A stretch of DNA of 64,000 bases, from contig JAIBBC010000003.1 of assembly GCA_019694875.1 (NCBI GenBank), positions 674,469-738,468 on the forward strand, given 5' to 3'. Below, one piece after another: positions 2,268 through 7,297 of the stretch. The DNA is from Cyclobacteriaceae bacterium. GTDB taxonomy: Bacteria > Bacteroidota > Bacteroidia > Cytophagales > Cyclobacteriaceae. A program made the translations under genes and the position numbers. Below the pieces are notes generated by a model that worked only from the letters and a program-made list of their open reading frames with translations, made no database searches and had not been told where the DNA came from. Each line of letters begins with the position of its first letter. Position 1 is the stretch's first letter.

Positions 2268-2354
2268 GGAGAGGTGTCCGAGTGGTTGAAGGAGCACGCC
2301 TGGAAAGTGTGTATACCTGAAAGGGTATCGCGGGTTCGAATCCCGCTCTCTCCG
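2268..2354 (+). tRNA. tRNA-Ser (anticodon GGA)
   Basis: An 87-nt class II tRNA. The acceptor stem is GGAGAGG paired with TCTCTCC (last pair G-U), with discriminator G. The anticodon loop reads CTGGAAA, giving anticodon GGA. There is a long variable arm, and the T arm is GCGGG-TTCGAAT-CCCGC. CCA is not encoded (CAA follows). The 3' end is the left border of an accessory island, and its last bases are repeated at 6191-6202. Confidence 0.97.
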
Positions 2355-2444
2355 CAACAGCCCATTTTATATTTAAATGGGCTTATTTATTACTACCCTT
2401 GTTATTAATTTCATCTAAGAGATACTTTGTATTCGAAAATACAG

Positions 2445-3863
2445 ATGATAGACTATTCAAAATATTTCAGATTCAAACTCAAGTCGCAGCAAATAAGAGC
2501 GTTTCTGGCGATAGTGGATTTTATCGAAAGTGATCAGCGCGTTTTTATTTTAAATGGATATGCAGGAACAGGAAAAACAACCTTAATGAGCGGTCTAATC
2601 AACTGGCTTAATCAAAAGAGAACTGATGTTGTGCTTCTTGCCTCCACTGGCAGAGCGTCCAAGATTCTATCCAACAAAACACAAAATAAATCAAGTACGG
2701 TTCATAGTCATATCTATCGTTTCCAAGAGCTCAGTGCTGATTTGGAGAAAATGAGTGAGTCGAAATCAGATAACGGACAGATCAGGCTCGTCTTTGACCT
2801 AAAAACACTTAATTCTACAACAGAGACAATCTATATCGTTGATGAATCATCCATGATTTCGGATGCCCATGAACAGAAGGGTTCGTTTGCCAAGTTCGGA
2901 AGCGGTGATTTATTGAGCGACTTATTGTCATTTGATGCAATGGGCAAGTATATCTTCGTTGGTGATCCATGTCAATTGCCTCCAATTGAACAAAGCGATT
3001 CGCCAGCATTGTCAAAAGATTATATATTCAGTAAATTCTTACTTTCGGCTGCTGAGTTTGAATTAACAGACATCATCAGGCAGAGCGATGACAGTGGTAT
3101 CATTAAAGCTTCATTCGAGCTTCGTGAGTTGTTCCGAATAAACCCAGATCAACGTTGGGCAAAGCTACCGCTGAGAGGATTTGAAAATGTAAATTTTCAT
3201 GATTCGCATGTAAGCTTAATTGGTAGTTATCTCAAAGAGGTCAGGGATAACGGTTTTGATAGTGCCACTCTTATCTGTCAGACAAACAGCCATTGCCATG
3301 ATATTAACACAGTTATCAGGTCAGCATTAGGAAGGGAAAATCACCTTTCGGTTGGTGATTTACTAATGGTAACTCAAAACAATCATTTATCGAGTCTTGT
3401 TAATGGAGATCATGTAATTGTGAAGGCTATTCTTCATCGAGAAAAAAGGTGCGGGTTAACTTTTGTATGGGTGGAGGTTCAGGAACAGTTCTCAAAAATT
3501 AAGCAATCTTCATTTTTGATTGAAGACATATTATACACGAAGGATACAAACCTTACCACGGAACAACATCGTGAATTAATGATGGACTTCTTCTTACGAA
3601 TGAAGGCTAAAAACATTTATCAAGGTGATGAGCAGTTTAACGATGAAATGTTGACCGACCCATATCTCAACGCAATTAAATCTGTCTTCGGATATGCTTT
3701 GACCTGTCACAAATGCCAAGGCGGTGAGTGGGATAATGTCTATCTGTACTTAGACAATAAAATTCAAGGATTACCACGACCTCAAATTTATCAATGGTGG
3801 TACACCGCTGTAACACGAACCAAGAAAAATCTGCACGTAGTTGACGATTGGTTTATTTCTTAA
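2445..3863 (+). CDS. RecD/Pif1-like superfamily 1 DNA helicase
   Basis: A 472-residue ATPase from the ATG at 2445; an upstream in-frame TTG at 2427 is less likely. Walker A is GYAGTGKTT (residues 38-46), Walker B IVDESSMI (D133-E134), and motif III is GDPCQLPPI (Q177). The C-terminal UvrD-like part has TCHKCQGGEWDNVYLY (about 420-435) and AVTRTKKNLHVV (about 455-466). All core SF1B (5'-3') helicase motifs are intact, so it should be an active helicase. No extra nuclease domain is visible. It follows tRNA-Ser and converges on the RT gene, overlapping its 3' end by 11 nt. It is shorter than RecD2; a defence or element-maintenance role is inferred from context only. Confidence 0.88.
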   Translation: MIDYSKYFRFKLKSQQIRAFLAIVDFIESDQRVFILNGYAGTGKTTLMSGLINWLNQKRTDVVLLASTGRASKILSNKTQNKSSTVHSHIYRFQELSADLEKMSESKSDNGQIRLVFDLKTLNSTTETIYIVDESSMISDAHEQKGSFAKFGSGDLLSDLLSFDAMGKYIFVGDPCQLPPIEQSDSPALSKDYIFSKFLLSAAEFELTDIIRQSDDSGIIKASFELRELFRINPDQRWAKLPLRGFENVNFHDSHVSLIGSYLKEVRDNGFDSATLICQTNSHCHDINTVIRSALGRENHLSVGDLLMVTQNNHLSSLVNGDHVIVKAILHREKRCGLTFVWVEVQEQFSKIKQSSFLIEDILYTKDTNLTTEQHRELMMDFFLRMKAKNIYQGDEQFNDEMLTDPYLNAIKSVFGYALTCHKCQGGEWDNVYLYLDNKIQGLPRPQIYQWWYTAVTRTKKNLHVVDDWFIS

Positions 3864-5406
3864 GTTTCCTATTATGAACTTTCTTCGCTACAAGTCCCCT
3901 ATTTTTTGGATTATTTTTTTTGAAATTAAAGCGTTTGTCGTTCTTTAACGCCAATGACTTTAGAATGATGTCGAAATGTCGCGATAATTGATTTCTTATC
4001 GCAGGCGAGTCGAACCCTTTCTTCGTACCCTTTTTTACCTTATATGTTTTAAGGGAAGCATTGTAAGCATATTTTAAGAAGTTATTATTACCAAGATGTG
4101 TATATCGTTTTAAAAGTTGTTGTTTAAATACACGATCGTTAGAACCGGAAGATCCGTACGCCATACCCACGGATTTCACAATCCTTGCCCTCATTTTTCT
4201 CATGTATCTTGAAAGGCTTGTGCCTCTGATCAGTACTTTTTGCCCGGTAAATTCAAATCCCAAGTATTGCAGTGCTTTGTAAAGCCTTTGTTCGTTTGTA
4301 TGGTCTATGGATGGTATGGATTCTTCTATGCGTTTTTTCTCATTGAATGCTCGAATTTGACCTTTTGAATTATTAGCAAATTTGATTATGTCTACCTTCT
4401 TGTCCTGAATAATTAAATGATACTCCTTACTGATTTTGTCAATAACATTTTTCTGAATTTCACTAGCGTCATCAGAATTACATATTATCAAGATATCATC
4501 ACAATACCTTCGATATGAGAAATTCATTATTTTGCCCATTTGCCACATGTCCTCATCGAACTTCAATAAGTAAATGTTAGAAAGAAGAGCACTTAGCGAA
4601 CTGCCTTGCGGAACTCCGAAAAATCTTTTCTTGCCATCTGGCAATAGGTCATAGCTTGAGTTTTTTGTGATCAATCGAGCATCTCTGACGGACTGCATTT
4701 TTTCCGAAAAAGTCTTGCCTTGTAAGACCTGAGAAAACGAGGATATATGTTTTGCATTCTTGCCTCTAATTTTCAATGAAAAATGCTTCAACAGGGAAAT
4801 TCGATTGACGTAGTTATACCTAGTCAGAGACTTGTAAACTGCATAATCATCTTCAGATAAACGACCACCCAAAATTGTTGACCATTGATCTTTTAAAATC
4901 GTATGATCAATTGAGTCAAAATAACCTTTTATATCAAGCGCCAATGCCGTGCATTGCCCGCGAGCCTTAACTGTATCAAATGCTTCTTTTGCAAATTGGA
5001 TATTCGATTTTCCGTCTAGATCAGATCGATACGCAAGTACGACTTCAGAAAAACCTTTACTGACAATATAATCCTGATATTTTTTATTCAAGGCATGTGC
5101 GTAGTAGGCATAAATTTTACTATCAAAGTGAGAGGCAAATGAGATTGGTCGCTCTTTTGTTTCTAAGTCATACTTTTCCATGTTTTCCTGGTACTTATAC
5201 CTTGGAGTTTTTATCACGAACTTAATCAGCGGCAAGAAATCATGATTTTTCAATCCATTCCCCCTTATAAAGATGCTTTGCAGTTTACCAATTTGCTTGA
5301 CAGCGAAGGGGTGATCGAAGTGAATATACCTTTTTGAATCGCGCGGATCAGAAAAGTTCTCGTTATCGGATAACCATTGTTTCCAAGTATCTTCAGAGTA
5401 GATCAT
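3853..5406 (-). CDS. Reverse transcriptase of the UG/DRT-like class (517 aa)
   Basis: RT motifs are all present: an N-terminal RT0-like segment (about 88-128, ending VVLAYRS), motif A ALALDIKGYFDSIDH (catalytic D158), motif B GVPQGSSLSALLSN (264-277), motif C YCDD (301-304) and YLGFEF (381-386). A basic helical C-terminal extension of about 130 residues follows, ending in Lys/Arg-rich sequence. No maturase X domain, HNH endonuclease or retron-type VTG motif was recognised. YCDD, the length and a structured noncoding region immediately upstream fit defence-associated RTs (DRT2/UG2 and DRT9/UG28 have an upstream RNA template), but the subgroup cannot be assigned by eye. ATG at 5406. The 3' end overlaps the convergent helicase gene. 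Confidence 0.92.
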   Translation of the reverse strand: MIYSEDTWKQWLSDNENFSDPRDSKRYIHFDHPFAVKQIGKLQSIFIRGNGLKNHDFLPLIKFVIKTPRYKYQENMEKYDLETKERPISFASHFDSKIYAYYAHALNKKYQDYIVSKGFSEVVLAYRSDLDGKSNIQFAKEAFDTVKARGQCTALALDIKGYFDSIDHTILKDQWSTILGGRLSEDDYAVYKSLTRYNYVNRISLLKHFSLKIRGKNAKHISSFSQVLQGKTFSEKMQSVRDARLITKNSSYDLLPDGKKRFFGVPQGSSLSALLSNIYLLKFDEDMWQMGKIMNFSYRRYCDDILIICNSDDASEIQKNVIDKISKEYHLIIQDKKVDIIKFANNSKGQIRAFNEKKRIEESIPSIDHTNEQRLYKALQYLGFEFTGQKVLIRGTSLSRYMRKMRARIVKSVGMAYGSSGSNDRVFKQQLLKRYTHLGNNNFLKYAYNASLKTYKVKKGTKKGFDSPAIRNQLSRHFDIILKSLALKNDKRFNFKKNNPKNRGLVAKKVHNRKLKK

Positions 5407-5870
5407 CAGATTTTTTCAAGGGGAGTAAGACCATGGATACATCAAATTGCTTCAATGATGCTTTCGCATAACCCCTCGTCCACATGACACGCAAGTGTCA
5501 ACTTTAACAGGGTCTTTTCACTCCACACTTGGCCTCGCGATGTCTTGCGACAAGGACAGGGCACTTCATTCCATAATAATTTGTAATCGATCACAAATCA
5601 TTACACTATCCCGAGTTATTACCTCCCAGGCCCGCGCTTAGAGCGGGGAATTTCCGACCAACAATTCGATTAGTGCAGTTGGTTATCGGGGGCGCTAAAC
5701 TTTATAATGATTATGTTAATCACAATACAGAAGTTTCTCCTTAGAAGGGTGACAGTGAGTCTCCCAACGGCCATACTGGCTTCAGTAAGAACGTTTCTGG
5801 CACACTTATTGGAAATTAATCCAGAAGTGGGTATATTAAACAATCCTCCCCTCAATCAACATGAGGGCAT
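5407..5870 (-). ncRNA. Candidate structured noncoding RNA upstream of the RT
   Basis: About 460 bp with no convincing gene but many inverted repeats: 5485-5500 (TGACAC-GCAA-GTGTCA, perfect); 5541-5558 (7 bp, one bulge); 5582-5605 (TGTAAT-c-GAT / ATC-ATTACA, 9 bp, one bulge); 5631-5647 (CCCGC/GCGGG); 5654-5662 with 5678-5689 (CCGACCAAC against GTTGG-tta-TCGG); 5803-5829 (CACTT..TGGA/TCCA.AAGTG); 5849-5867 (CCCTCA/TGAGGG). Retron, DRT2 and DRT9 template RNAs sit directly upstream of their RT on the same strand, so transcription leftward is assumed. Ends, promoter and the exact fold are not determined. Confidence 0.5.
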
Positions 5871-6190
5871 ATACGCAACTGCAACCATGATGCCATTGGT
5901 TCCAACTTCATGAAATATTTCTGAGCGATTAAAAAATTTCTTCAAAATCGAGGATTTAGTCTGATAATCTAAAAAGCAGTTGCTTGTTTAAACATTCAAT
6001 TCCGGAAAAGTTGTCACCTTTTCTTGTCAAAAAGCAGGCATGGCAGAAGATTTACCCTCTGCCCGATGCGCGATCGTACTTATATGGGTCGCACTGATCT
6101 TTCGATATTCTGATCGGGCGTTACATTACGCTCAGTCGGACAAAGCGGCATTTTCTTGAAAATTCCCAGCGGATTCAGAATTCGGACGGA
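5871..6190. other. Noncoding island remainder between RNA region and ansA
   Basis: No open frame here looks like a real protein. The only structure seen is a widely spaced 7-bp inverted repeat (GCCCGAT at 6061-6067, ATCGGGC at 6113-6119). It may hold the promoter of the RT/RNA transcript, but no exact TAnnTTTG box was found on the minus strand. Confidence 0.4.
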
Positions 6191-6202
6191 CACTCTCCGC
6201 AA
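6191..6202. repeat. Near copy of tRNA-Ser 3' end (possible attR)
   Basis: CACTCTCCGCAA matches the tRNA-Ser 3' terminus and the two following bases (2346-2357) at 11 of 12 positions, with an uninterrupted 10-bp match CTCTCCGCAA. It lies between the island and the ansA stop codon, where a right attachment site would be expected. Usual tRNA att cores are longer, so chance is not excluded. Confidence 0.35.
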
Positions 6203-6232: not shown

Positions 6233-7297
6233 CTATTCCGAAAGTTCGCCCGCCAGCGACTTACCAATCATAACTCTCACTTTTTCAGGTGCATGTCCGC
6301 CCAGCAACAGCATCAATTTCGTAACGGCTGCTTCACTCGTCATGTCGGCACCACTGATAACTCCTATTCGCAGCAAGTCGCGGCTTGTTTCGTAGCGCCC
6401 CTGCAGTACCATGCCACCCGGACACTGCGAAATATTCACCACAATAATTCCGTTGTCGATCGCGGCCTTCAGCGCATCAATCAGCCAGAGCACTGTAGGC
6501 GCATTGCCTGAGCCATACGTTTCAAGAATCAGGGCTTTGAGTCCGGGAGTTTTCAGGATTGATTCAACAATCGGGCGGCTGATGCCGGGAAATAATTTCA
6601 AAATGGCGATACCTGAATCAAAGGTTTGATGTACGTGAAGTCCTTTGTGGATTTCCGCCTTGCGGATGACGGACCGGTTATAGTCGATTTTCACTCCCGC
6701 TTTCGCCAAAGGCGGATAATTACCCGAATCGAACGCATCGAACTGCATGCTCTCAACTTTCTTCGATCGGTTACCGCGAAGCAATTCGTAGTCAAAATAA
6801 ATACAAACTTCCGGAACCACGGGCGCACCATCTTCCTTTGCGGAAGCAATGTCTAACGCTGTAATGAGGTTTTCCCGGGCATCCGAACGTGGTTCACTGA
6901 TCGGCAACTGAGCGCCTGTTAAAATCACCGGCTTAGCTAATCCCTCCAGCATGAAGCTTAAGGCTGATGCTGTATATGCCATCGTGTCCGTACCGTGAAG
7001 AATCACGCATCCATCGTGTGTGTTGTAATGATCGGATATGATTTGCGCCAATAGTTGCCAATGCTCCGGATTTATATTGGATGAATCAATCGGGTGCTCG
7101 AACGATACGACCGTCAGCTGAAGCGACATTGTACGCAGCGTTGGCAGGTGTTCCAGAATCAATCCAAAATCAAACGGGATTAACGTACCATCTTTATCGT
7201 GTGCCATCCCGAATGTTCCGCCTGTATAAATAATCAAGACTTTTGAACGCGCCTTGTCGGGCGATGCGGTGTTGACGAGGATGGTTTTTGTATTCAT
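6233..7297 (-). CDS. ansA: Type I (cytosolic) L-asparaginase
   Basis: A 354-residue protein hydrolysing L-asparagine to aspartate and ammonia. The first active-site motif is IYTGGTFGM (catalytic T25), the second HGTDTMAYTAS (T103-D104), followed by KPVILTGAQLPI and SDARENL. There is no signal peptide, consistent with the cytosolic type I enzyme. The start overlaps the tatD stop by 4 nt (ATGA-type coupling), making it the last gene of a long leftward overlapping operon. The gene ends just beside the island border. A weak stem (CCGTT/AACGG) after the stop could be a terminator. Confidence 0.92.
   Translation of the reverse strand: MNTKTILVNTASPDKARSKVLIIYTGGTFGMAHDKDGTLIPFDFGLILEHLPTLRTMSLQLTVVSFEHPIDSSNINPEHWQLLAQIISDHYNTHDGCVILHGTDTMAYTASALSFMLEGLAKPVILTGAQLPISEPRSDARENLITALDIASAKEDGAPVVPEVCIYFDYELLRGNRSKKVESMQFDAFDSGNYPPLAKAGVKIDYNRSVIRKAEIHKGLHVHQTFDSGIAILKLFPGISRPIVESILKTPGLKALILETYGSGNAPTVLWLIDALKAAIDNGIIVVNISQCPGGMVLQGRYETSRDLLRIGVISGADMTSEAAVTKLMLLLGGHAPEKVRVMIGKSLAGELSE

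Follow-up and report, generated by a model that had tools for sequence, protein, structure and literature searches.

A divergent DRT2 reverse transcriptase locus of Cyclobacteriaceae with a probable concatemer-encoded Neo gene and a candidate GTT[T/A]A jump motif

The stretch of DNA considered here, in the following called the window, comprises 64,000 nt from a Cyclobacteriaceae bacterium (assembly GCA_019694875.1, contig JAIBBC010000003.1, positions 674,469 to 738,468) and contains, in an island between a tRNA-Ser and an open reading frame (ORF) labelled ansA, a reverse transcriptase (RT) of the DRT2 (UG2) family that is preceded on its own strand by a putative non-coding RNA (ncRNA). In the DRT2 systems described so far, the template lies between two ACA motifs and is copied into tandem repeats, and these repeats form one stop-free antisense frame that encodes the protein Neo (PMC12039810, PMC11100668). 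A preliminary description, made from the letters of the window, had suggested a defence RT that uses an RNA encoded next to it as template, which has been borne out by comparison with the UG2/DRT2 type, the RNA lying just upstream. The elements of the system can be given as follows.

3853-5406, minus strand: DRT2 (UG2) reverse transcriptase of 517 residues with YCDD, assigned from profiles, structures and the tree
5407-5870, minus strand: putative DRT2 ncRNA with approximate limits, from its layout and its conservation in relatives
5849-5867, minus strand: predicted 5' handle hairpin with a 6-bp stem and a 7-nt loop, separated by 7 nt from the first GTTTA
5837-5841, minus strand: candidate jump motif 1 (GTTTA) at the template 5' end, inside the unit, from alignments of relatives
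5696-5700, minus strand: candidate jump motif 2 (GTTTA), directly 3' of the template, from motif comparison among relatives
5407-5695, minus strand: 3' part (scaffold) of the putative ncRNA, extending as far as the RT start and containing, towards its 3' end, a core that is conserved in relatives
5701-5841, plus strand: template as candidate Neo repeat unit of 141 nt and 47 codons, stop-free over the junction
5707-5709, plus strand: candidate Neo start codon, codon 3 of the unit, matched by an early in-frame ATG in relatives
5809-5811, plus strand: TTG, a -33-like element
5832-5839, plus strand: TATATTAA, a -7/-10-like element 20 nt after the TTG, with TA here in 10 of 14 units

The RT reading frame has been recovered with the length and the YCDD site first reported for it; it contains an RVT_1 domain and is the sole RVT_1 match in the host genome at E <= 0.001. 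The comparison with UG/DRT profiles, proposed earlier as a check, has given Drt2 as the best match and has left the group II and retron models below their curated cutoffs. PADLOC assigns the protein to Drt2 with 428.8 bits (E 8e-129), the closest PDB chains are those of Drt2 (E 1e-59), and the NCBIfam Drt2 model scores 394.1 bits at a cutoff of 390, a narrow margin that fits a divergent, Bacteroidota-type clade. A group II intron RT or maturase has been rejected at 74.2 bits against the NCBIfam cutoff of 300, as has a retron RT, for which the best NCBIfam model (St85) reaches 52.7 bits at a cutoff of 235, and no group II intron RNA has been detected at the Rfam gathering score within the window. 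Judged by these sequence comparisons, the RT is a DRT2 enzyme.

Searches of bacterial genomes have yielded 14 loci whose RTs are 36-61% identical to that of the window (tblastn), among them the same-genus relative L062 with 61% RT identity and an open unit, and no match to the RT has been found in the viral contigs searched. In a tree confined to 44 Drt2-like RTs, 13 of the relatives group with the window at 100/100 support, and the remaining one, L074, joins this clade weakly (32/92); the E. coli drt2 and 20 Bacteroidota RTs with YSDD fall elsewhere. L041, with an RT broken by stops, stands outside the tree, yet it is counted among the 24 other Drt2-like loci of the rule test described below, and in L070 the RT reading frame stops short of the N-terminus, so that its upstream limit is approximate. 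The same gene may bear several ids (L005 = L057 = L067; L003 = L074; L034 = L068; L035 = L069; L036 = L070; L043 = L063; L044 = L064; L045 = L065; L046 = L066; L058 = L071; L059 = L062; L060 = L072; L061 = L073).

The approximately 460 bp of non-coding DNA seen earlier upstream of the RT have been confirmed, and their description as hairpin-rich holds in part, as the stretch folds better than most shuffles but is only modestly unusual: for 508 nt upstream in the window the folding z has been found to be -2.0, with 2 of 100 shuffles folding as well, and for L062 it reaches -4.5, with none of 100 shuffles as good. The conservation of the RNA parts in relatives is stronger evidence than the folding. 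When the window is aligned with L062, conserved blocks flank a variable middle, which is the layout of the ncRNA of Klebsiella pneumoniae DRT2 (KpDRT2), in which conservation is lowest in the template (PMC12039810). An alignment of ten loci that was not centred on the motif shows the same GTT, and the same A two bases further on, in every one of them, and GTT.A is the sole invariant block in a gapless alignment of 14 loci, partly by construction, the stretches having been cut around it. Seven of 14 loci have a hairpin of 6 bp or more whose end lies 7-8 nt ahead of the motif, with stems that vary on both sides between these loci; the other seven have none at this place. In the 3' part, the core near the RT start is kept in relatives, and both-sided changes have been observed in six of the eight pairs of its consensus fold. 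The comparison thus places a putative ncRNA, composed of a 5' handle, a template and a 3' scaffold, directly upstream of the RT and on the same strand.

Where the ncRNA 3' part begins, 141 nt downstream of the first GTTTA, the motif occurs a second time, so that the ends of the unit at 5701-5841 repeat GTTTA, and its antisense reading, taken head to tail, is one stop-free frame. Fourteen units have been compared, those of the window and of 13 relatives, with L071, which lacks the GTT pair, outside this set. In 13 of them the length is divisible by three (141, 144, 153 or 159 nt) and the same frame is open, namely the one that reads the terminal AAC as a codon; among shuffled units, 1-9% are open. 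A sole GTT[T/A]A is present 120-180 nt before the second motif in eight of the 14 loci, seven of which give an open unit, and the remaining loci have two candidate first motifs each, the candidate used being the open one. A fixed rule, requiring GTT[T/A]A, then GTT 135-165 nt on at a distance divisible by three, and an open frame 0, selects 13 of the 15 clade loci and 2 of the 24 other Drt2-like loci, and 41 of 1500 shuffles of upstream regions pass it too; when TTG at -33 is required in addition, the counts become 10/15, 0/24 and 1/1500. An in-frame ATG is found within the first eight codons of 12 of the 13 in-frame units. Their 13 Neo-frame products are hydrophobic (mean hydropathy 0.57 to 1.15), as are those of some other frames, and little conserved in sequence, and the unit of the window has been predicted as one helix over residues 2-39 (mean pLDDT 72, moderate confidence). 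From these comparisons, a Neo gene is very probably present in the window's DRT2 clade, which probably uses another jump signal, GTT[T/A]A, and longer units (141-159 nt). No description of Neo in a Bacteroidota DRT2 has been found among the matches listed from the open-licence PMC literature.

A further regularity concerns the distance to the end of the unit: ten of 14 units have a TTG that starts exactly 33 nt before this end, and the offset that comes second is shared by three of 14. As none of 20000 shuffles of synonymous codons has reached ten units with TTG at -33, and as TTG accounts for few of the other leucine codons in the units (15/103), the TTG at this position exceeds the constraint of the amino acid. 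Nine units, that is nine of the ten with this TTG, also have TA 20 nt later. The window element is similar to the Bacteroidota promoter consensus, -33 TTTG and -7 TAnnTTTG (PMC6847099), the full -7 consensus TAnnTTTG not being seen at unit junctions on inspection by eye, and it also fits a loose sigma-70 pattern (TTGGAA, 17 nt, TATATT). As long as there is a single copy, TTG-N20-TA is directed away from the ORF; a concatemer places it ahead of the start codon of the next unit. In KpDRT2 the promoter halves are split across the repeat junction (PMC12039810), whereas the promoter-like TTG-N20-TA of the clade probably sits at the unit end.

Regarding the published ACA motif, the four plasmid drt2-like loci taken as first positive control (L075-L078) have shown an open ACA pair in one case and have been replaced by the two E. 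coli drt2 loci L115 and L116. In both of these the scan lists the expected 117-nt ACA unit, and the junction-split promoter is clear in L116 and has a poorer first hexamer in L115. Of the 15 clade loci, five, the window included, contain open ACA pairs at a spacing of 102-135 nt, and at none of these five has a split promoter been found. We read GTT[T/A]A in the place of ACA as a variant within DRT2, and not as an exclusion from it, because the papers derive ACA from the kin of KpDRT2. The 20 Bacteroidota Drt2-like RTs with YSDD are separate in the tree (100/97 support), and Drt2 is the best PADLOC match of the two examples scanned (L012, L050). The fixed rule gives an open GTT unit in one of the 20 (L007), and a common jump motif has not been found in 18 upstream regions of this group. 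Hydrophobic antisense ORFs have been observed upstream in several of these 18 loci, the upstream regions of interest being those of L050, L051, L052, L053, L054, L056, L013 and L014.

We interpret the locus as an anti-phage DRT2 system with a concatemer-encoded Neo, belonging to a divergent clade of Bacteroidota type, and we assign to this reading a probability of about 0.8 together with the following mechanism, whose steps are modelled on KpDRT2. The RT would bind the RNA transcribed from the DNA that directly precedes its own gene and, upon a trigger during phage infection, would copy the central 141-nt template. At the GTTTA of the template 5' end, the end TAAAC of the complementary DNA (cDNA) could re-anneal to the second GTTTA at the 3' side, whereupon copying would restart by template jumping. 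Second-strand synthesis would render the concatemer double-stranded, and the outward TTG-N20-TA at the end of one repeat, directly preceding the start codon of the next, may then drive transcription of a stop-free repetitive messenger RNA. Its translation would give a hydrophobic, helical Neo protein, which is expected, by analogy, to arrest the growth of the infected cell and in this way to provide defence.

The surroundings of the system comprise the following features.

2268-2355, plus strand: tRNA-Ser (GGA), left border of the island
2348-2357, plus strand: left copy of the 10-bp direct repeat CTCTCCGCAA, at the tRNA 3' end
2427-3863, plus strand: RecD2/Pif1-like helicase of 478 residues with a TTG start, probably not part of the system
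6193-6202, plus strand: right copy of the 10-bp direct repeat CTCTCCGCAA, possible right border of the island
6233-7297, minus strand: ORF labelled ansA, a label taken over from the preliminary description

The tRNA-Ser reported beside the island is indeed present, and in the Rfam scan of the window the tRNA alone has been found at the gathering score. The 10-bp repeat of the tRNA 3' end is consistent with an insertion at the tRNA, chance being possible for ten bases; the end point first given for the island, 6202, is the end of the right repeat copy. No integrase has been seen in the island, because its two large ORFs are the helicase and the RT. An ansA match is present in 15 of 16 other genomes of the genus, and the tRNA-Ser sequence stands beside ansA in 14 of 15 congeners (L080-L094), none of these 14 having such an island. 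Relative to ansA, the tRNA-Ser is oriented as in the window in eight of the 14 and reversed in six, the reversed group including L080 and L081, the congeners with the closest ansA, and a short segment therefore seems to flip or to be re-inserted among congeners. In L084 (approximately 850-1470), one of these 14, the copy of the tRNA-Ser beside ansA is broken and a fuller copy follows about 0.4 kb further on, so that the pair looks as after an insertion into that tRNA. Within about 6 kb of the RT, ORF families of the clade loci include a type I modification gene and a type I specificity gene in 7 of 15 each and a restriction gene in 6 of 15, one protein of each of the three kinds being confirmed by Pfam. 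The loci near type I restriction-modification genes are L062, L064, L065, L066, L069, L072 and L073, and such neighbours are what defence islands lead one to expect.

Several observations weigh against the interpretation as a Neo-encoding system. The motif and the unit boundaries were first picked by eye on the same loci and the limits of the rule were set afterwards, L065, L069, L072 and L073 are close kin so that the counts overstate independence, and a GTTTA pair is by itself nothing unusual in the window, where 4 such pairs are present and 2.9 would be expected. Nor can openness alone pick the unit, since several other open pairs are listed for the E. coli controls. The unit of L067 (L067:8473-8624) has 152 nt and is out of frame, though both GTT motifs are present, L070 lacks an early in-frame ATG, and L071 has a Neo-like hydrophobic antisense ORF upstream of the RT without the GTT pair, perhaps using another jump motif. 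The published ACA motif is not used in the KpDRT2 manner in the clade, GTT[T/A]A standing there, four units (L063, L066, L067, L070) have no TTG at -33, and the final TG of the Bacteroidota -7 consensus is missing from the window element. The consensus fold of the 3' part is weak (-1.3 kcal/mol for 12 sequences and 8 pairs, the alignment being too diverged). Nonsynonymous to synonymous codon changes among three close relatives amount to 13:6, 17:11 and 21:9 in raw counts, the second codon positions changing least, and a sense-strand frame is stop-free too in nine of 14 units, in eight of them the same frame, perhaps as a by-product of hydrophobic codons on the other strand. This sense-strand openness and the fast divergence of the Neo-frame amino acids would be in keeping with a DRT2 and a template RNA that work with no Neo protein at all, the concatemeric DNA, or its capture of a phage or host factor, providing the defence and the open frame following from composition. 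Such a composition effect would have to account for 13 of 14 units being divisible by three in the same frame, for the early in-frame ATG of 12 of the 13 in-frame units and for a TTG constrained beyond its amino acid, and in KpDRT2 stop codons abolish defence (PMC12039810); we regard this explanation as unlikely.

Two further explanations start from the island and not from the unit. The helicase had been described as intact and facing the RT, and it is a RecD2/Pif1-like protein with no internal stop; the two genes are convergent, as was stated, with ORFs that overlap by 11 bp. Their adjacency in one island and the match of the helicase, as a stand-alone protein, to the PADLOC candidate defence family PDC-M16A (E 1e-124) would suit one two-gene system in which the helicase clears or unwinds cDNA or RNA. 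Converging genes form no operon, however, and no helicase homologue has been found in the flanks of any of the 14 RT relatives (tblastn, E <= 1e-3; about 1-10 kb on either side, with short flanks for L063, L068 and L072), on which ground the helicase has been rejected as RT partner. Broad-type helicases are also common in the family, with 136 of 196 sampled genomes, the host included, containing one at E <= 1e-30, and six other family genomes have the helicase at 39-41% identity with E below 1e-100, one of them with a stop. A functional pairing of RT and helicase, raised in the preliminary description, is thus very improbable, and the pairing looks accidental from these comparisons, as the same description had cautioned that it might be. 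That the locus is no more than a DRT2 relic of a defence island, degenerate or inactive, would agree with the lack of the island in all 14 congeners with a visible tRNA-Ser/ansA neighbourhood and with the out-of-frame unit of the relative L067. We give it hardly any credence in view of the intact RT with YCDD, the open unit, the handle hairpin and the promoter-like elements of the window, and of the 61% identity to a same-genus system that has an open unit itself.

We consider it rather probable that the jump signal of DRT2 is not fixed, the clade having GTT[T/A]A for ACA, a Neo of 47-53 codons and a complete promoter at the unit end. Creation of the gene would then consist in bringing an outward promoter before the next start codon, and a hidden gene would be kept while signals and promoter logic differ. 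When ACA is no longer required, a divergent clade gives a consistent Neo unit, which makes it possible to address directly whether the RT or the RNA structure sets the jump site and whether the motif can be swapped. A gene that exists only after reverse transcription can also be sought by comparison in other phyla.

Compared with known systems, the window shares with KpDRT2 (PMC12039810, PMC11100668) and with L115 and L116 a Drt2 RT with YCDD, an upstream RNA of the same sense with a 5' handle hairpin, and a central template whose two ends carry a short repeated motif, as well as a unit divisible by three that is stop-free in antisense, with an early in-frame start and a helical Neo predicted. 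The differences lie in the jump motif, GTT[T/A]A in the clade and ACA in KpDRT2, and in the unit length, 141-159 nt in the clade compared with 111-129 in the KpDRT2 paper and 117 in the E. coli controls. All 13 in-frame units of the clade end in AAC as a complete codon of the open frame, against frame 2 for the E. coli units, the promoter-like elements stand together at the unit end in the clade and are split across the junction in KpDRT2 (PMC12039810), and the RT of the window is longer by about 90 residues (517 against 425 in the KpDRT2 paper and 428 in L115 and L116). With retrons and group II introns the RT has the RVT_1 domain in common, while remaining under their curated cutoffs. DRT9 (UG28) is likewise a defence RT with an adjacent ncRNA as template (PMC12632851); it makes homopolymer DNA (PMC12632851), whereas the window has a candidate coding unit, and the RT of the window scores 71 bits with PADLOC Drt9 compared with 429 for Drt2.

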